64,000 nucleotides of DNA, from contig RYFE02000006.1 in NCBI GenBank assembly GCA_004138175.2, positions 1 to 64,000 on the forward strand, written 5' to 3'. The stretch comes from Chloroflexales bacterium ZM16-3. Lineage in GTDB: Bacteria; Chloroflexota; Chloroflexia; Chloroflexales; Chloroflexaceae. Under the pieces are notes generated by a model. It did not search any database. It was given only the letters and a program-made list of their open reading frames with translations, and was not told the DNA's origin. A program made the translations under genes and the position numbers. Of this stretch, positions 2,307-57,795 are shown one piece after another (position 1 is the first letter of the stretch; each line of letters opens with the position of its first letter).

Positions 2307-3278
2307 ATGATCGCAGGACTCTACCACACCGCCCCGGCGGCGGCCCGCGCCCTGGTCGCGGAGATTGACCAGCTGCGGGCCGAGCGCAACGCGGTGATCC
2401 TGGCCCATAACTATCAGTATGGCGAGATCCAGGATGTTGCTGACTATGTGGGCGACTCGCTGGGCATGGCTCAGTACGCCGCCCGCAGCGACGCGCCAGT
2501 GCTGCTGGTCTGCGGGGTGCATTTTATGGCCGAGACATCGGCGATCCTCTCGCCCGAGAAGACGGTGCTCATCCCCGACCCCGAGGCCGGCTGCTCGCTG
2601 GCCGACTCGATCAGTGCCGAGCAGCTGCGGGCATGGAAGGCTGAGCACCCTGGCGCGGTGGTGGTAAGTTATGTCAATACGACCGCTGAGGTGAAGGCTG
2701 AGAGTGACTACTGCTGCACCTCGGGGAATGCCGAGCGGGTGATCAGGGCGATCCCTGAGGATCAGGAGATCCTGTTCCTGCCCGATATGTTCCTGGGCAG
2801 CTATCTGCGCCAGGTTACTGGCCGCAAGATGGAGATCTGGGCCGGCGAGTGCCACGTCCACGCCGCGATTAAGCCTGCGATGGTTGAGCGCCAGCGCGCC
2901 GAGCTGCCTGGCGCCGAGCTGCTCATCCACCCCGAGTGCGGCTGTGTCAGCTCCACGATGCACTATCTGGCCTCTGGCTCGATCAGCGCCGAGGGCACCC
3001 ACATTCTCTCCACCGAGGGGATGATCCGCCACGCCGCCCAGAGCGCCTCGCGCCAGTTTGTTATCGCCACCGAGATCGGTGTGCTTCACCGCATGCAGAA
3101 GGCGAACCCCGAGAAGGAGTTCCTGCCGATCGATGAGTCGATCTCCTGCCGCTATATGAAGATGATCACCCTGGAGAAGGTGCGCGATAGCCTGCGCGAT
3201 ATGACTCACCCGGTGACGGTTGACTCGACTCTGGCCGACCGCGCCCGCACGGCGATTGAGCGGATGATCGCTCTATAA
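2307..3278 (+). CDS. nadA: Quinolinate synthase NadA
   Basis: The 323-residue enzyme condenses iminoaspartate, made by NadB, with dihydroxyacetone phosphate to give quinolinate, using an oxygen-sensitive [4Fe-4S] cluster. The family motifs are clear: ILAHNYQ near the N terminus and cluster-ligand cysteines in VCGVHFM, DYCCTS/GECHVH and PECGC. The start has GGAGGT nine bases upstream. It is the first gene of a nadA-nadB-nadC block on the plus strand, behind a strong promoter and several palindromes, so NAD-responsive control is plausible. Length is normal for the family. Confidence 0.95.
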   Translation: MIAGLYHTAPAAARALVAEIDQLRAERNAVILAHNYQYGEIQDVADYVGDSLGMAQYAARSDAPVLLVCGVHFMAETSAILSPEKTVLIPDPEAGCSLADSISAEQLRAWKAEHPGAVVVSYVNTTAEVKAESDYCCTSGNAERVIRAIPEDQEILFLPDMFLGSYLRQVTGRKMEIWAGECHVHAAIKPAMVERQRAELPGAELLIHPECGCVSSTMHYLASGSISAEGTHILSTEGMIRHAAQSASRQFVIATEIGVLHRMQKANPEKEFLPIDESISCRYMKMITLEKVRDSLRDMTHPVTVDSTLADRARTAIERMIAL

Positions 3279-3322: not shown

Positions 3323-4960
3323 ATGTTTCACACCCCGCGATATGTCCTGGCCACCCAGCCGCGTGCCGCCCGCGTTGAGCGGGTTGGCGTGCTGGTGATC
3401 GGCGCGGGCGCGGCCGGCCTGAGCGCCGCCCTGGTCGCCGCCGAGCGCGCCGATGTGACTGTCCTGGTGCGCGGGCATCTGCCCGAGAGTAACTCGGCCC
3501 TGGCCCAGGGCGGGATCGCCGCCGCCCTCGATGCCCACGACTCGCCGCGCTCTCATATCGACGATACGCTGGTCGCTGGGGCTGGCCTCTCCGACTGGGG
3601 CGCGGTCTCGGCCCTGGCCTACGATGCGCCTGACCTGATGCGCGAGCTGGCCGCCCTCGGCGTGCCTTTCGAGCGTAGCGCAGACGACCGCTTCGCCCTC
3701 GGCCTGGAGGGCGGCCACTCGATGCGCCGGATCGTCCACGTGGGCGACGCCACGGGCTGGGCTGTCACCGAGCAGCTGATCGCCCAGGCCCAGGCCCACC
3801 CGCGCATTAGCATCCGCGAGGGCTGGCAGGCCGCCGACCTGCTCGATGCGGGCGGGCGCGTCGTGGGCGTGATGGCCCGCGACGCAGCGGGCACATGGTC
3901 GCGCATCCTGGCCGACGCGACGATCCTGGCCACCGGCGGGGCGGGCGCGCTCTATGGGCTCACGAGCAACCAGCCGGTCGCCCTCGGCGAGGGCATCGCC
4001 ATGGCCTACCGCGCAGGGGCCGAGGTGGCCGACATGGAGTTTGTCCAGTTCCACCCCACGGTCTACCGCACCCGCGAAGGCCAGGGCTTCCTGATCACCG
4101 AGGCGGCCCGAGGCGAGGGCGGACACCTGCGCACCCTCGACGGAGAGCGCTTTATGCCCGCCTACGATCCGCGCGCCGAGCTGGCCCCGCGCGATGTGGT
4201 GACGCGCGGGATCTACGCGGCCATGCGCCGCACCGGCAGCGACCATGTGCTGCTCGACCTGACCCATCTGCCGCCTGAGCTGCTGGCCCACCACTTCCCG
4301 ACGATCTCGGCCCGCCTGCGCGAGGACGGGATCGATATCGCCACCACGCCTATCCCGGTGGCCCCGGCCTCGCACTACCTGATGGGCGGCGTGCGCACCG
4401 ATCTGGATGGGGCCACCAGCCTGCCGGGGCTCTACGCCGCCGGCGAGGTGAGCTGCACCGGCGTCCACGGCGCGAACCGCCTGGCCAGCAACTCGCTGCT
4501 GGAGTGCCTGGTGTTCGGACGAAGGGCGGGGGAGGCCGCTGCGCGAATTGCAGATTGCAGATTGCAGATTGCAGATTGGTCTGAACCTCAGATCAATTTG
4601 CAATCTGCAATCTACAATCTGCAATCAGATTGGCGCTCCGAGCTGGCCGAGATCATGGTCGCGGCGGCCGGCCCGCTGCGCGACAGCCACGGGCTGCGGA
4701 TCGGCCAGGCGGCTCTGGCGGCCATGCCGACCCAGGCTAGCCCGGCAGATGGCGATGCGATCACGGCGGCGAACGCGGCCCTGACGGCCCGCCTGATTGT
4801 TGAGAGCGCCCTGCTTCGCCAGGAGAGCCGGGGCGGCCACTTCCGCAGCGACTTCCCGCAGACCCGCGAGGACTGGCACGCACATACGGTGCTGCGCCGG
4901 GGCCAGTCCCTCCAGCTGGTCGAGACGATCGCTCCCGATCTGGCTCACGCGGCGGATTAA
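3323..4960 (+). CDS. nadB: L-aspartate oxidase NadB with an in-frame repeat insertion
   Basis: This FAD enzyme oxidises L-aspartate to iminoaspartate for NadA. The N-terminal dinucleotide motif GAGAAGLSAALVAAE, the SNSALAQGGIAAA stretch, QFHPT and the family signature ending in ASNSLLECLVFGRRA are all visible. The 545 residues are slightly long because residues about 409-435 are encoded by a palindromic repeat (4547-4626) between the FAD domain and the C-terminal helical domain. The frame is kept and the C-terminal domain continues normally from WRSELAEIM. The start has AAAGGA upstream. It is probably co-transcribed with nadA (44-base gap). Confidence 0.93.
   Translation: MFHTPRYVLATQPRAARVERVGVLVIGAGAAGLSAALVAAERADVTVLVRGHLPESNSALAQGGIAAALDAHDSPRSHIDDTLVAGAGLSDWGAVSALAYDAPDLMRELAALGVPFERSADDRFALGLEGGHSMRRIVHVGDATGWAVTEQLIAQAQAHPRISIREGWQAADLLDAGGRVVGVMARDAAGTWSRILADATILATGGAGALYGLTSNQPVALGEGIAMAYRAGAEVADMEFVQFHPTVYRTREGQGFLITEAARGEGGHLRTLDGERFMPAYDPRAELAPRDVVTRGIYAAMRRTGSDHVLLDLTHLPPELLAHHFPTISARLREDGIDIATTPIPVAPASHYLMGGVRTDLDGATSLPGLYAAGEVSCTGVHGANRLASNSLLECLVFGRRAGEAAARIADCRLQIADWSEPQINLQSAIYNLQSDWRSELAEIMVAAAGPLRDSHGLRIGQAALAAMPTQASPADGDAITAANAALTARLIVESALLRQESRGGHFRSDFPQTREDWHAHTVLRRGQSLQLVETIAPDLAHAAD
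4547..4626. repeat. Palindromic TTGCAGA tandem element inside nadB
   Basis: The left arm holds four and a half units of ATTGCAG (4547-4578). The right arm (4595-4626) is their near-exact inverse, and about 16 bases separate them, so the element can fold into a long hairpin. Related elements sit between genes at 9506-9557, 12831-12913, 35463-35511 and 49409-49480. Here it is translated in frame within NadB. Confidence 0.85.
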
Positions 4961-5160: not shown

Positions 5161-6006
5161 ATGGATCTCGCACCCCATATCATCAATGAGATCGTCGCCC
5201 GCGCCCTGGCCGAGGATGTCGGCACAGGAGACCTGACCAGCATGGCGGCCGTGCCCGCCGACCTGCGGGCTGAGGCGGCCTTCGTGCTGCGTGAGTCGGC
5301 GGTGGTCTGTGGGCTGCCGGTGGCCCGCGCCGTCTTCGCCGCCGTGGACCCGGCGCTGGAGCTGCACGCCCTGCTGCCCGAGGGCGCCCGCGCCGAGGCC
5401 GGGGCCACCATCGCCACGGTGGCAGGCCCGGCACGCGGGCTGCTCACCGGCGAGCGCGTGTCCCTCAACCTGCTCCAGCGCATGTGCGGCGTGGCCACGC
5501 TCACCGCCCGCTATGTCGAGGCCGTCCAGGGCACCAAGGCCCGCATCCTCGACACGCGCAAGACGACGCCCGGCCTGCGCGCCCTGGAGAAGTACGCCGT
5601 GCGCACCGGCGGCGGCACCAACCACCGCTTTGCGCTCTACGACGGGGTGATGCTGAAGGATAACCACCTGGCGATCCTGGCCGCGCAGGGCCTGGGCCTG
5701 GCCGATGCGGTGCGCCGGGTGCGCGCCTCGGTTGGCCCGATGGTGCGGGTGGAGGTGGAGGTGGAGAGCGTGGAGCAGGCCGCCGTGGCCGCCGCCGCCG
5801 GGGCCGACATGATCCTGCTGGACAATATGCCGCCCGATGAGCTGCGCTCCGCTGTGGCCGCCATCGCCGGGCGGGCGCTCGCCGAGGCCAGCGGCGGGAT
5901 CACCCTGGCCAGCATCCGCGCCGTGGCCGAGAGCGGGGTGGACTTTATCTCCGTCGGCGCGCTGACCCACTCGGCCCGCGCGCTCGATATTGGCCTGGAT
6001 ATGTGA
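5161..6006 (+). CDS. nadC: Nicotinate-nucleotide pyrophosphorylase (quinolinate phosphoribosyltransferase) NadC
   Basis: The 281-residue enzyme decarboxylates quinolinate and transfers phosphoribose from PRPP, giving nicotinate mononucleotide, the step after NadA and NadB. Family motifs are present: EDVGTGDLTS at the N terminus, ILDTRKTTPGLR, AVRTGGGTNHR, LKDNH, VEVEVES, LLDNM and the C-terminal ISVGALTHSARALD. The start has GGGAGGT eight bases upstream. The 200-base gap from nadB contains hairpins but no terminator, so the three nad genes may form one unit. Confidence 0.95.
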   Translation: MDLAPHIINEIVARALAEDVGTGDLTSMAAVPADLRAEAAFVLRESAVVCGLPVARAVFAAVDPALELHALLPEGARAEAGATIATVAGPARGLLTGERVSLNLLQRMCGVATLTARYVEAVQGTKARILDTRKTTPGLRALEKYAVRTGGGTNHRFALYDGVMLKDNHLAILAAQGLGLADAVRRVRASVGPMVRVEVEVESVEQAAVAAAAGADMILLDNMPPDELRSAVAAIAGRALAEASGGITLASIRAVAESGVDFISVGALTHSARALDIGLDM

Positions 6007-8070: not shown

Positions 8071-8250
8071 GGCAATATCATAAAACTCGCCCTGTGCAGC
8101 ACCGCCCGGCGGCTGAATCCGCGGGCTATGGTCTGCGAAGCCCGCCTTCGCGGGCTGGCCGAGGTCGCGAAGGCGGCCTTTGTCGATCCGTAGACCGCCC
8201 GTTTACGGGCCGGGCGCTCAGGGTGTCAGGGCGAGTTTTGTGGTATTGCC
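8071..8250. repeat. Complete GGCAATA-TIR MITE-like element, 180 bp
   Basis: The ends are inverted repeats of 24 bases with two mismatches: GGCAATATCATAAAACTCGC at the left, its counterpart with CC and CA at the right. The interior contains GAAGCCCGCCTTCGCGGGC-type hairpins and the block CCGCCCGTTTACGGGCCGGG, also found at 33480-33520 and, inverted, at 45060-45095. No ORF is contained, so movement would need a transposase in trans. It lies between a methyltransferase stop and the end of a small tad-cluster ORF. No clear target duplication was seen. Confidence 0.75.
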
Positions 8251-9505: not shown

Positions 9506-9557
9506 GATTGCAGATTGTAGATTGCAGATTGCAGCGCACAATCTGCAATCTGCAATC
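9506..9557. repeat. Palindromic TTGCAGA tandem element
   Basis: GATTGCAG units on the left arm and their inverse on the right arm fill the gap between two tad genes, ending three bases before the TadE stop. Same family as the element inside nadB. Confidence 0.75.
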
Positions 9558-10068: not shown

Positions 10069-11550
10069 CTACGGGCAGAATGGCGGCACGGCGCCCTGGG
10101 CCTGGTTCTGCACCTGGACATCGCCCAGGCCGGGGCCGTTCGGGCCGGGCGCGTTATCAACCTGGTCGGTGCTAATGGTGAGCTGGACGTTGGCCGGGTA
10201 GCTGTTGGCCGGGCAGGCCGTGGCGAACCCGCTGGCGTCGGTCGGCCCAAGGGTCACCGTGTCATGAAAGGTGACGCCGCCAAAGACATAGCTGATATGG
10301 ACGGTGATCGTCTTGCCCGCCACCCCGACACCTCCCAGGCTGGTGTAGACGCGGCCAGAGAGGTAGAGCCCTGCGTTGCCGCTGCTCCCCGGGTTGTAGT
10401 GCTTCACGGCGCTGAGCGACACCGAGACCCCCGGCGGCGGTGTGGGCGTGGGCGTGCTGGTGATCGTCGGCGTGGCCGTTGGCGGGAGGCTCGTCGGTGT
10501 GATCGTCGGCGTGTTGGTTCGCGTCGGCGTGTTGGTTCGCGTCGGCGTGTTGGTTCGCGTCGGCGTGTTGGTTCGCGTGTTGGTCACCGTCGGCGTGTTC
10601 GTCTGGGTCGGCGTCGGTGTGTTGGTTCGTGTCGGCTTGGGCGTGCTCGTTGGCTTGGGCGTCCGCGTCGGCTTGGGCGTGCGCGTCGGCCTAGGCGTCC
10701 GCGTCGGCGTGCTCGTCCGCGTCGGCGTGCTCGTCCGCGTCGGCGTGCAGATGGAGATCGGGCATGCCGTGGCGGTTCTCGTGCGCGTCGGCGTACTCGT
10801 GCGTGTCGGCGTGCGCGTCGGCGTGTTGGTCACTGTCGGCGTGTTGGTCGGCGTGTTGGTCACCGTCGGCGTGTTGGTCACTGTCGGCGTGCGCGTGCGC
10901 GTCGGCGTGTTGGTCACCGTGGCCGTATTCGTCGCGGTTCCCGTCTCGGTGGGCGTCGCCGTCTCGGTCGGCGTCGCCGTCTCGGTCGGCGTCGCCGTCT
11001 CGGTCGGCGTATTCGTCGGCGTCGATGTCTCGGTCGGCGTCGGCGTATTCGTCGGCGTGTTGGTCGGCGTCGGCGTGACCGTAGGCAGCAGGCCGGCAGG
11101 CGGCGCGCGCAGGCCGTCGCAGCCGGTGGTGATCGTCCGCATCGACACGGCATCCAGGTCGAAGCCGTCGAAAACCCCCGCGCTGAACGGGTCGAGCGGC
11201 TCGATCCGGTAGCTCACCGTGACTGTCACCGGGTCGCCATAGTTCTGGAGGTAGGGGCCGCTATAGTCGATCCGCATCGTATTAAAGATCAGGTCGGTGT
11301 CGGCGAAGGCCGGCACGTGGGCCACCGTATCGGCACGGATCATGTCCAGCTCCGCCGGGCTGGGGCAGGGGCGCACGGCGGCGGCGCGTGCGCCCTCGCG
11401 GGCCGCGTTGTTGATCTGGGCGTACATAAAGAGCAGGTAGCCCAGGTTGATGATCCCGAGCAGCAGCAGCAGCAGCAGCGGCAGCACCAGGGCGAACTCA
11501 ACCACGCTCTGCGCCCCACGGCGAGGAAGATCCGGCTTGTGTCGGCTCAT
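10069..11550 (-). CDS. TadE-like protein with long Pro/Thr-rich stalk and C-terminal beta domain
   Basis: The 493-residue protein begins with a TadE domain: [20 protein letters not shown], one membrane segment, then [12 protein letters not shown]. After about residue 155 comes a 215-residue low-complexity stalk of TPT, TNTPT and TETATPT units. The C-terminal 120 residues (from [15 protein letters not shown]) look like an Ig-like beta domain. The stalk would hold this domain away from the cell surface. Normal TadE proteins have only about 150-200 residues, so this is an unusual adhesin-like fusion. Repeat number is probably unstable, because the coding DNA is a minisatellite. Confidence 0.8.
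10440..11090. repeat. Coding minisatellite for the Pro/Thr stalk
   Basis: Imperfect units of 6-18 bases built around GTCGGCGT and GTTGGTTCGC repeat for about 650 bases. They encode TPT/TNTPT/TRTPT repeats on the minus strand. Length variation between strains is likely. Confidence 0.8.
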
Positions 11551-13852: not shown

Positions 13853-13880
13853 AACCGTGATCAACCTCTTCTGTATAGTC

Positions 13881-14006
13881 CCAACCCCCAACCCCCAACC
13901 CCCAACCCCCAACCCCCAACCCCCAACCCCCGACTCCCGACTCCTGACCCCCGACTCCCGACTCCTGTCCCCCGACTCCCGACTCCTGTCCCCCGACTCC
14001 TGTCCC
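13881..14006. repeat. CCCCAAC and CCCGACTCC tandem repeats between tadB and tadC
   Basis: About seven CCCCAAC heptamers are followed by units of CCCGACTCC, CTGACCC and CTGTCCC. The tract ends directly at the tadB stop codon. CCCCAAC-type tracts also occur at 10047, 37220, 57685 and 57766, and the GACTCC type occurs inside mnmA. Confidence 0.8.
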
Positions 14007-16402: not shown

Positions 16403-16510
16403 GTGGGGGTGCGGGGGCGGCTTCGCCGCCCCCGCGATACTTTTTTGTTGAGGTTGGGCGGCTTCGCCGCCCAACCTCAACAAAAGTAGGTTTGGGGCGC
16501 AGCCCCAAAG
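16403..16510. repeat. Hairpin repeat between tadZ and tadA
   Basis: A 20-bp perfect stem (16443-16462 with 16466-16485, loop TTC) carries GGTTGGGCGGC. It is flanked by smaller GGGGGCGGC-TTC hairpins and by GGGGCGCAGCCCC. A near-identical element is at 29700-29825 and a shorter one at 50921-50953. Confidence 0.8.
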
Positions 16511-24504: not shown

Positions 24505-24762
24505 TCATACTCGCAGACGTGAGACAAAAATCAGCAGGAGCCAGGCCATAAGCACCGACTCGAGGATGGGCACGCCGGCTGGCGTGGGGAGATCGAGCGG
24601 GAAGCGCAGCCCGAGGCCGTAGGCGATCAGGCATCCTACAACGGCGGTGAGCCAAAAGATCGGCAACTGACGCCATGCGCGTCCTAGCAGGACGTGGGCC
24701 AGTGCGGCGCAGGCGGTGGCGATCAGGAGGATGAGCACGGCTGCTGGGGCGATGCCGCTCAT
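24505..24762 (-). CDS. Small three-helix membrane protein
   Basis: The 85-residue protein is almost entirely three hydrophobic helices with short loops. Its ATG overlaps the mnmA stop by four bases (ATGA), a sign of translational coupling. No family was recognised. Similar tiny membrane proteins after mnmA occur in other Chloroflexia, to my recollection, but I cannot confirm that here. Confidence 0.65.
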   Translation of the reverse strand: MSGIAPAAVLILLIATACAALAHVLLGRAWRQLPIFWLTAVVGCLIAYGLGLRFPLDLPTPAGVPILESVLMAWLLLIFVSRLRV

Positions 24763-25886
24763 GCGCCACCAGCCCGCGCGATCAGGCCACCGCCGATCAC
24801 CCGCTCGCCATCGTAGAAGACGGCGGCCTGTCCGGGGCTGATCGCCCGCAGCGGCTCGTGCAGGCGAACTGTCAGCCGCCCATCATCGCCGGGCACTACC
24901 TCGGCGGGCGCGGTCGCGCCGTGGGCGCGCACCTGCACATGGCAGCTGAATGGCTCTTCCGGCCAGCTGCTGGATGTGAAGCTGATACGTTCCACGTGAA
25001 ACTCTTTGCGGATCAGCGCCGCCGCCGGGCCGACCACCAGGGCGTTGCGCGCCGTGTCTAGGGCGGTCACATATAGCGGCTCGGAGCCCTGTAGCCCCAG
25101 GCCGCGGCGCTGGCCGATAGTGTAGAGCGGCAGCCCGCTGTGTCGACCCACCTCGCGCCCTTGCTGGTCGACGATCGGGCCGGGGACGATGCTCGCCGGT
25201 GCCTCCTCGCGAATAAGGTTGCGGTAGTTTCCCCCAGGCACAAAGCAGATGTCCTGGCTCTCCGGTCGGTCGGCGCTGTCCAGCCCGCGCTGTGCAGCCA
25301 TCGCTCGCACCTCGGCCTTGCGGTACCCGCCGATTGGGAATGTCAGCCGGGCCAGATCGCTCTGCTGGAGCATGTACAGCATGTAGGACTGGTCCTTCTC
25401 AGGGTCGGCGGCTCGGTAGATCTGGGGCTCGGGAGTCGGGAGTCGGGAGTCGGGAGTCGGTGCAACTGACTCCCGACTCCCGACTCCTGAGCCCTGTATC
25501 CTCGCGTAGTGCCCGGTCGCCACGTACTCGTAGCCGAGCTGGGTCGCGCGGGAGAGCAGGGCGCGGAACTTGATCTCGCGGTTGCACTCCAGGCAGGGGT
25601 TGGGCGTGTAGCCCTGGGCGTAGGCGTGGACGAAGGCGTCGATCACGTGGAGCCGGAACTCGCGCTGGTAGTTGAAGACATAGTAGGGCACGCCGAGTCG
25701 GGCGCAGACCCGTCGGGCGCTCTCGGTCATCTCCTGTGAGCAGCAGAGGCTCTCGGCCAGGCGGTCGTCGTCGCCCTCCCAGAGGTGCATCGTCACGCCG
25801 ATCACCTCGTGGCCCTGCTCGTGCAGCAGGGCGGCCGCCAGGGAGCTGTCCACCCCGCCGCTCATCGCGACAATAATTTTTGCCAT
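24759..25886 (-). CDS. mnmA: tRNA-specific 2-thiouridylase MnmA with an in-frame repeat insertion
   Basis: MnmA adenylates and thiolates U34 of tRNAs for Lys, Glu and Gln. The PP-loop SGGVDSS, the nucleophile Cys98 in NPCLECN, YVATGHYARI and the second catalytic Cys region ICFVPGGNYR are present. The 375-residue protein is about 20 residues longer than usual: residues about 131-155 (GVGSRESVAPTPDSRLPTPE) are encoded by a GGAGTCGG palindromic element (25425-25494). They sit in a loop between the GHYARI strand and the YRAADPEKDQS motif. The ATG at 25886 starts the conserved AKIIVAMSGG; the frame extends upstream. Confidence 0.94.
   Translation of the reverse strand: MAKIIVAMSGGVDSSLAAALLHEQGHEVIGVTMHLWEGDDDRLAESLCCSQEMTESARRVCARLGVPYYVFNYQREFRLHVIDAFVHAYAQGYTPNPCLECNREIKFRALLSRATQLGYEYVATGHYARIQGSGVGSRESVAPTPDSRLPTPEPQIYRAADPEKDQSYMLYMLQQSDLARLTFPIGGYRKAEVRAMAAQRGLDSADRPESQDICFVPGGNYRNLIREEAPASIVPGPIVDQQGREVGRHSGLPLYTIGQRRGLGLQGSEPLYVTALDTARNALVVGPAAALIRKEFHVERISFTSSSWPEEPFSCHVQVRAHGATAPAEVVPGDDGRLTVRLHEPLRAISPGQAAVFYDGERVIGGGLIARAGGA
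25425..25494. repeat. GGAGTCGG palindromic element inside mnmA
   Basis: Four GGGAGTC units on the left face their inverse on the right across about 8 bases, bounded by GGGCTC (25425-25430) and GAGCCC (25489-25494). The same unit occurs in the tadB-tadC gap (13931-14006). The element is translated in frame. Confidence 0.85.
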
Positions 25887-29699: not shown

Positions 29700-29825
29700 C
29701 AGGGGTGTTGCAATGTCCTGGGGCTACGCCCCAGACCCGGTTTTTTGTTGGGTTTGGGCGGCTTCGCCGCCCAAACCCAACAAAAAATTCTGCAGGGGTG
29801 GCGAAGCCACCCCCGCACCCCCACC
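29700..29825. repeat. Hairpin repeat between tauE-like and DUF1634 genes
   Basis: A 22-bp perfect stem (29741-29762 with 29766-29787, loop TTC) carries GGGTTTGGGCGGC. Flanking smaller hairpins are CCTGGGGC-TACGCCCC and GGGGTGGC-GAAGCCACCCC. Nearly the same module is at 16403-16510. Confidence 0.8.
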
Positions 29826-33370: not shown

Positions 33371-33542
33371 ACGTCATTGTTATCCAGCGCCGCCGCCGTG
33401 GGGCTGAAGCCCCCGGCTCTTTTTTTACGAAGGCCGCCTGCGCGGCCTGACTGAGGCCGCGCAGGCGGCCTTCGCAGACCGTAGCCCGCCCGTTTACGGG
33501 CCGGGCACGCGCAGGGTGACAGAGTGACTTCTGTCTTACTGC
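33371..33542. repeat. GGCAATA-family MITE-like element, degenerate ends
   Basis: The right half (33480-33542) has the family block CCGCCCGTTTACGGGCCGGG, then CACGCGCAGGGTGACAG and TGACTTCTGTCTTACTGC, a mutated right terminus. The centre contains a long hairpin GAAGGCCGCCTGCGCGGCC with its inverse. GTGGGGCTGAAGCCCCC and a T-run precede it. The left terminus is uncertain. Confidence 0.6.
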
Positions 33543-33546
33543 GAAA

Positions 33547-37219: not shown

Positions 37220-37260
37220 TAGGGGTTGGGGGTTGGGGGTTGGGGGTTGGAGGTTGGGGG
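37220..37260. repeat. GGGTTGG tandem repeat
   Basis: Five or six GGGGTTG heptamers begin three bases after the rnj stop. It is the inverse of the CCCCAAC tract at 13881. Confidence 0.75.
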
Positions 37261-44950: not shown

Positions 44951-45030
44951 AGGTCGTAAACGCCTTAGCGCCTGTATTTTAACACAGGTGCTTTAACTTT
45001 TGTCGAACAGCTGTGATCAAAAGTAAAAAT

Positions 45031-45238
45031 CGCCGTAGCGCAGCAGTCACGCGGTCACCCTGCGCGTGCCCGGCCCGTAAACGGGCGGGCTATAGGTCTG
45101 CGAAGCCCACTTGCGCGGGCTGGCCGAGGCCGCGCAGGCTTCGTCGTGAGCTCAGCCGAACGGCGGCCTTTGCAAAACCGTAGCACGCGGCTTCAGCCGC
45201 CGGGCGACGCCGCACCGCATGACTTCTGCGGTATTGCC
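45031..45238. repeat. GGCAATA-family MITE-like element, inverted copy, 208 bp
   Basis: The left end (CGCAGCAGTCACGCGGTC) mirrors the right end (GCATGACTTCTGCGGTATTG). The interior carries CCCGGCCCGTAAACGGGCGG, the inverse of the block in the copies at 8071 and 33371, plus GCGAAGCCC-type hairpins. It separates the two J-domain genes of the ccm region. Confidence 0.7.
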
Positions 45239-49408: not shown

Positions 49409-49480
49409 GATTGTAGATTGTAGATTGTGGATTTGCTGCAACAGAACGCTACCCAGTCTGCAATCAGCAATCAGCAATCA
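49409..49480. repeat. TTGCAGA/TTGTAGA palindromic element overlapping the ccmD end
   Basis: GATTGTAGATTGTAGATTG faces CTGCAATCAGCAATC. It fills the ccmD-ccmE gap and touches the ccmD stop codon. Confidence 0.7.
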
Positions 49481-57684: not shown

Positions 57685-57722
57685 TGGGGGTTGGGGGTTG
57701 GGGGTTGGGGGTTGGGGTTGGG
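57685..57722. repeat. GGGGTTG tandem repeat
   Basis: About five GGGGTTG heptamers just upstream of ccmA. A CCTAACC tract at 57766-57790 flanks the terminator on its other side. Confidence 0.7.
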
Positions 57723-57740
57723 AGAGGTGATGTAACGCCA

Positions 57741-57766
57741 ACAAAAAACCGGGGAATGCTCCCCGG
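57741..57766 (-). terminator. Terminator of the alpha/beta hydrolase gene
   Basis: CCGGGGA (57749-57755) pairs with TCCCCGG (57760-57766) around ATGC. On the minus strand the stem is followed by TTTTTTGTT. It separates the hydrolase from ccmA. Confidence 0.75.
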
Positions 57767-57795
57767 CCCAACCCCTAACCCCTAACCCCTGTCCT

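Follow-up and report, generated by a model that had tools for sequence, protein, structure and literature searches.

A tandem-heptamer palindrome in the NadB linker of a Chloroflexales genome, and coding palindrome sites that appear to outlast their sequences

Introduction

Palindromes inside the protein-coding genes of Rickettsia are described as selfish-DNA insertions that decay with time. These Rickettsia palindromic elements (RPEs) form families of 105–146 bp that share sequence over their full length, and the product of an RPE-bearing gene (gmk) is made and is active with the insert (PMC2229807); RPEs are also described in PMC3733652, and similar coding palindromes of Wolbachia and Methanocaldococcus are cited in PMC2996958. 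Dispersed heptameric repeats are known from Xanthomonas (unit GGGAATC) and Nostoc (GGGGA(C/T)T); in Xanthomonas, 70–75 convergent inverted pairs occur, the repeats are 7–11% intragenic, and 83% of the heptamer positions are occupied in the sister species too (PMC4692102). For Geobacter metallireducens, an excerpt of PMC2700814 gives 49 heptanucleotide elements (GGGACCG), located within and between genes. REPs have stems of 5–13 bp and a tag tetranucleotide, with the GTAG types accompanying a transposase; they occur inside genes in several species, and in one case, the recB gene of two Xanthomonas species, different REPs lie at nearly the same position (PMC3733652). In the open-licence literature we found no report of such elements in Chloroflexota.

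The element described here, located within nadB of a genome that its nearest named relatives place in Oscillochloris or nearby, is a convergent heptamer array by architecture and RPE-like by effect. Its apparent novelty seems to lie in a combination, namely the coexistence of many heptamer families, the conservation of the reading frame, and the turnover of sequence at conserved sites within proteins.

A palindrome in the reading frame of NadB

The window, that is, the whole stretch of 64,000 nucleotides analysed, belongs to a genome of 6.27 Mb (hereafter G000) and contains nadB flanked by nadA and nadC (Table 1). The gene encodes a complete 545-aa L-aspartate oxidase, scoring 533 bits against the nadB equivalog profile TIGR00551 (cut-off 452.75) and containing the Pfam domains FAD_binding_2 and Succ_DH_flav_C, and its frame stays open through an inverted repeat of about 80 bp. 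The 38-nt arms, in each of which the heptamer ATTGCAG or its complement recurs about five times, are complementary at 35 of 38 positions, and the folded RNA is highly stable (–59.7 kcal/mol; shuffled sequences give –24.0 ± 3.3, z –10.7). In the frame of the gene the palindrome reads IADCRLQIADWSEPQINLQSAIYNLQS. An earlier note on this DNA had placed a palindrome at 4547–4626, in frame and without breaking the enzyme, where the FAD and C-terminal domains of this essential-pathway gene meet; arms, loop and frame were all recovered with coordinates correct to within one base, the location in this conserved biosynthetic gene agrees, the C-terminal domain being helical, and there is no sign of breakage.

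Table 1 Features of the window considered in the text
Feature	Position	Strand	Context or basis
nadA, quinolinate synthase	2307–3278	+	context of nadB
nadB, L-aspartate oxidase	3323–4960	+	TIGR00551
palindrome 5′ arm, (ATTGCAG)n, reading IADCRLQIADW	4547–4584	+	in nadB
codons of NadB residues 411–436, native hypervariable linker	4553–4630	+	structure model, alignments
loop of the extended nadB hairpin, 3 nt	4585–4587		in nadB
palindrome 3′ arm, (CTGCAAT)n with substitutions, reading NLQSAIYNLQS	4588–4625	+	in nadB
nadC, quinolinate phosphoribosyltransferase	5161–6006	+	context of nadB
ATTGCAG-family palindrome, nadB-type unit, without spanning coding-like frame	9506–9557		window
array shifting in register from AACCCCC to ACTCCCG units	13880–13986		window
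mnmA, tRNA 2-thiouridine(34) synthase	24762–25886	–	NF001138 above cut-off
GGGAGTC / GACTCCC heptamer palindrome in mnmA	25429–25487	–	Pfam HUP domain runs across
GGGGGTT heptamer array	37222–37257		window
ATTGCAG-type inverted pair, diverged	49409–49480		window
GGGGGTT / AACCCCT inverted pair	57685–57790		window

The NadB linker

In NadB alignments covering 30 proteins of the order and then a wider set from named genomes, the repeat sits between the last FAD-domain motif NRLASNSLLECLVFG and the C-terminal helical domain. By one way of measuring, the linker at this position has 46 aa here, 47 aa in the repeat-free proteins L006 and L007, and 42 aa in Ca. O. fontis, likewise repeat-free; among repeat-free orthologs its sequence is unconserved and its length nearly equal, and aligning the E. 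coli and Salmonella NadB structures across it gives hardly any net insertion. The repeat thus fills a native linker, since repeat-free relatives and E. coli have one of about equal length, and the proposal in the earlier note that it adds about 27 residues does not hold. The same note had named, as an observation that would speak against an insertion, a conserved non-repeat sequence of equal length in the orthologs; the equal length was found and the conservation was not. In an AF2 model (TM 0.83 against E. coli NadB, 1knp), residues 411–436 form a coil between two helices with pLDDT below 50 at residues 419–427, a low linker confidence that may partly reflect the 19-row alignment on which the model was built.

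The picture of a single, NadB-specific insertion had likewise to be given up, as congeners carry other heptamers at this place and many other genes have elements. The linker of G005 has the ATTGCAG unit found here with a diverged 3′ arm, that of G001 has AATGCAC units, that of G003 a degenerate array, and that of G007, which belongs to another genus and has a longer linker, CAGTTGG units. Because its linker could vary anyway, NadB is a mild case.

Two further observations concern this gene. No nadB was found in G004, the closest relative searched (rated 98% complete), though relatives have the gene; it is either lost or missing from the assembly at the repeat. More distantly (L114/L126), a NadB linker of Bipolaricaulota has significant period-7 DNA (GAGTTCN) and one of Dehalococcoidia encodes RHCEERSAEAIS, resembling a translated REP; repeats may thus land in this linker in other phyla too.

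A dispersed class of period-7 repeats

Across G000, (ATTGCAG)2 has 436 matches (206 forward, 230 reverse), against 0 for the backwards control, and its counts are patchy across the family, with 1137 in G004, 401 in G016, 382 in G007 and values near zero in many others. In the bulk stretches analysed (1.18 Mb or 19% of G000; 0.8 Mb or 12% of G004), tandem arrays of period 7 number 220 in G000, against at most 21 for each other period from 4 to 15, and 164 in G004, against at most 10 for any other period tested. The main heptamer families of G000 are AATCTGC (the nadB unit), ACTCCCG, AACCCCC and AACATTC, and 17 of 46 long arrays are in-register mosaics of two units, such as GGGGGTT running into GGGAGTC. 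With the nadB unit dispersed genome-wide and the class mostly intergenic, the earlier description of the element as a member of an intergenic repeat family is upheld. Paired arrays are predominantly inverted (82, against 9 direct), and their arm order is nearly fixed: 75 of the 82 begin with the G-rich arm, and the 15 ATTGCAG pairs listed all agree, whereas the loops differ from locus to locus; the class is therefore a recurring architecture built with few units and not an element copied as a whole.

Tandem, dispersed and mostly intergenic 7-base units, with inverted pairs in one fixed orientation, are likewise characteristic of the Xanthomonas and Nostoc repeats. The present class differs from them in the coexistence of many heptamer families, in the demonstrated frame-keeping of its in-gene copies, and in the fact that sister species can have different units at one site. 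A G-tract is also absent from the nadB unit, and without a G-run in ATTGCAG a quadruplex role does not fit it; G-runs do occur in other families of G000, GGGGGTT and GGGAGTC. The elements of G. metallireducens, in the excerpt of PMC2700814 referred to above, consist of four tandem heptamers and resemble those described here in being tandem and in lying within and between genes; they differ in being proposed as regulatory RNA, and neither frame nor turnover at sites is described in that excerpt. As for the likeness to RPEs drawn in the earlier note, the analogy stands, with palindromes lying in frame in conserved genes as well as between genes and tolerated in unstructured segments, but membership by sequence or architecture does not: the element is 80 bp long, its arms are tandem heptamers, and its locus-specific loops leave no sharing over the full length.

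A REP-type element mobilised by a REP-associated Y1 transposase would equally be palindromic, dispersed and mostly extragenic, and G000 has five Y1_Tnp matches; GTAG/CGTC REPs also resemble the present elements in being hairpins of which some lie in frame inside genes. Y1_Tnp (PF01797) counts, however, do not track the repeat load: in G004, where the nadB unit is matched most often, there is no Y1_Tnp, and in G012 there are 11 Y1_Tnp matches and no such repeats. The single-stem architecture of REPs is absent as well, the arms here being 38-nt heptamer arrays with no GTAG or CGTC tag at the ends, and this origin is highly improbable.

Reading frame of the in-gene elements

An element was called in-gene when an open frame spanned it and the flanks passed a codon-usage test. 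By this definition, 26 of the 194 elements in the 1.18 Mb of G000 are in-gene (24–25 under slightly different settings; two of the 26 are 20-bp arrays, for which chance is possible). The host genes encode MnmA, PriA, BchH-like, glycosyltransferase, acyl-CoA synthetase, xanthine dehydrogenase-like, histidine kinase, CydDC and multi-domain synthase-like proteins, eight of the names having been checked by profile and those of BchH and the synthase coming from reading of the sequence. The Pfam HUP domain of MnmA and HATPase domain of the histidine kinase continue on both sides of the element. Another 18 elements are flanked on either side by coding signal but spanned by no frame; on individual reading, 17 of them lie at or beside gene ends (one, C24:20922, being in fact open in frame), and only one of the 18 is a clear intragenic frame break, at C2:74536–74585 in an O-antigen-ligase-like gene, possibly a pseudogene or a phase-variable gene. 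The ratio of 26 in frame to 1 broken (p about 7e-12 against a one-third in-frame expectation) argues for translation, and by this frame conservation the elements would become part of the protein.

Stable hairpins within coding sequence occur in known bypass elements, and the high stability of the nadB RNA hairpin could point to splicing of the element from the message or its bypass by the ribosome, leaving a protein without it. Removal of either kind would require neither an open element nor a kept frame, and presence in genes independent of frame is not what was found; moreover, the NadB linker, with the repeat translated, has about the length seen in repeat-free relatives. We regard such removal as extremely unlikely. 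Contingency loci, in which gain or loss of one unit would shift the frame and toggle the gene, are suggested by a unit length that is no multiple of three and by the out-of-frame element at C2:74536, but in every genome inspected the in-gene elements keep the frame almost without exception and the hosts are housekeeping genes (NadB, MnmA, PriA), so that a switching role is very unlikely.

G004 gives the same picture: of 125 elements in its 0.8 Mb, 19 have an open frame running through them, and a valyl-tRNA synthetase-like and an MnmG-like gene each contain two. Some of these 19 frames appear to be antisense, and such candidates were counted as sites only with confirmation from an ortholog. 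Rough densities of elements inside and outside genes, estimated with a coding mask, were set aside, since at gene ends a frame can continue through an open heptamer and make the coding count too high. It was also considered whether heptamers are selected for being open in all six frames; this was rejected, with 52% of families so open against about 50% expected by our own estimate.

Two groups of in-gene elements may be mentioned separately. The multi-domain synthase-like gene of G000 (C13:91089–100496) contains at least six heptamer elements, several of them in linkers between tandem carrier-protein-like domains. Heptamer palindromes also occur in the HATPase β-hairpin before the DTG motif of histidine kinases both orthologous and paralogous (L184, L316, L317 and G004 C1:327498).

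Shared sites with different sequences

The second coding palindrome of the window, located in mnmA, encodes GVGSRESVAPTPDSRLPTPE. Between ATGHYA and KDQSY, the MnmA loop has 25 aa in G001 and G003, where it is empty, and 44–46 aa in G000, G004 and G005, each of which carries a distinct palindrome (units GGGAGTC, GGCAGGA and GGGGGAT, respectively). With G001 and G003 empty, sites must therefore also be gained or lost.

A broader comparison of G000 with G004 gave a repeat or palindrome in both genomes at 16 of 17 assessable in-gene sites, in a set chosen without pre-specification, pooled from several routes and with several sites within one gene, the palindrome test being made partly by eye (PriA site A, acyl-CoA synthetase site 2); the CydDC site falls in an assembly gap of G004. 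At control coding positions, element-free in G000, a heptamer or palindrome was matched in G004 in only 3 of 49 cases (Fisher p ~1e-12 with 16/16, slightly weaker with 16/17). The seventeenth site, in HemC, has a 20-bp array in G000, probably a chance occurrence, and nothing in G004.

The unit is the same or nearly so (1 nt apart) at 5 of the 16 sites, namely cyclase site 2 (where the loop is conserved), acyl-CoA synthetase site 1, xanthine dehydrogenase site 2, glycosyltransferase site B (with one loop in opposite orientation in the two genomes) and the histidine kinase on C13. Different heptamers occupy 7 sites (MnmA, PriA B and C, cyclase site 1, xanthine dehydrogenase site 1, BchH-like and glycosyltransferase site A), and at the other 4 (PriA A, acyl-CoA synthetase site 2 and two G004 genes on S1) a heptamer palindrome in one genome corresponds to an unrelated non-heptamer palindrome in the other. 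For the element in an ABC transporter gene at C84:170249, the relatives G001 and G005 show a loop of similar length that is not a repeat. Along a colinear G000/G004 stretch, about half of the anchored intergenic elements face a heptamer and a quarter a non-heptamer palindrome, against 4 of 22 non-coding control positions; this comparison is taken as supporting evidence only, because intergenic hairpins may be terminators. As far as sequence comparison can tell, these results suggest that a site is inherited more faithfully than its sequence.

The main rival explanation is independent insertion into a few permissive loops, with a high flux of repeats, selection sparing only in-frame copies in flexible loops, and no inheritance of the site. 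It would account for PriA site A, which has a heptamer in G000, a non-heptamer hairpin in G004 and another repeat in G016, for the use of one HATPase β-hairpin by orthologous and paralogous kinases, and for the period-7 or REP-like character of the Bipolaricaulota and Dehalococcoidia NadB linkers. It fits less well with the controls, occupied in 3/49 coding and 4/22 non-coding cases against 16/17 in-gene sites, or with the several sites that keep the unit and even the loop, where inheritance is certain for that very reason. Our inference is that the sites are inherited; independent hits, as a general account, seem possible but somewhat doubtful.

Proposed origin and turnover

We consider it likely that the nadB element is a dispersed heptamer palindrome translated within NadB and tolerated in a flexible linker, at sites that persist while the sequence turns over. 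The 80-bp element would be a member of the class whose arms of tandem heptamers face each other, transcribed and translated as part of NadB. Its tolerance, and apparent neutrality in NadB, may be attributed to the linker between the FAD and C-terminal helical domains being flexible, unconserved in sequence and constrained in length. In genes generally, such elements would persist only if the frame is kept, no stop arises and the loop is permissive, and a loop that once held a palindrome would remain a palindrome site as its sequence is replaced.

As to how the sequence turns over, units may mutate and slippage may then spread the change, homogenising the array, while arm complementarity may be maintained by hairpin-templated repair, a known type of mutation at imperfect palindromes. 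Drift and templated repair can explain swaps among related units. Unit drift does not account for a change between ATTGCAG and GGGAGTC or for one to a non-heptamer hairpin, and the simplest suggestion for these is that a new hairpin inserts at an existing one and the old one is lost. A mobilising enzyme was not found among Y1 transposases, SbcD or reverse transcriptases by comparison with the repeat load. Lack of SbcCD as a permissive cause was rejected, SbcD being present in all 25 of 25 genomes searched, as was reverse transcriptase, which shows no agreement with the load (the repeat-rich G007 is without any).

More tentatively, it is conceivable, though on balance not probable, that fixed coding-palindrome slots, of which the NadB linker would be one, persist over speciation and undergo active in-frame replacement of both arms and across families; if so, they would be a steady supply of new loop sequences for housekeeping enzymes. 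The wider pattern beyond NadB is the interesting part, and we hold it with moderate confidence: a genus of a photosynthetic lineage of Chloroflexota seems to carry coding palindromes in many conserved genes, and the comparison of two close relatives suggests that position outlives sequence. If this is true, it can be asked by what route one palindrome takes the place of another, whether new hairpins are drawn to existing ones, and how far NadB, MnmA and PriA accept new loop sequences. For annotation, it is a caution that variable linkers in these genomes are repeat-derived.

Other repeats in the window

The window also contains repeats of other kinds. An imperfect tandem repeat of 18/6 bp, long and with many copies of GGCGTG/GTCGGCGT, extends over 10432–11101, apparently in or over a repetitive reading frame. 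A second dispersed family of about 150 bp, unrelated to the heptamers and having the inverted parts GCGAAGGCCGCCTGCGCGG.. and CCGCCCGTTTACGGGCCGGGC, is represented at 8071–8216, 33387–33544 and 45030–45238. Finally, near-identical perfect hairpins, TTTTTTGTTGRGKTTGGGCGGCTTCGCCGCCCAAMCYCAACAAAA, occur at 16441–16485 and 29741–29785, both intergenic and terminator-like, and similar hairpins recur in G004.
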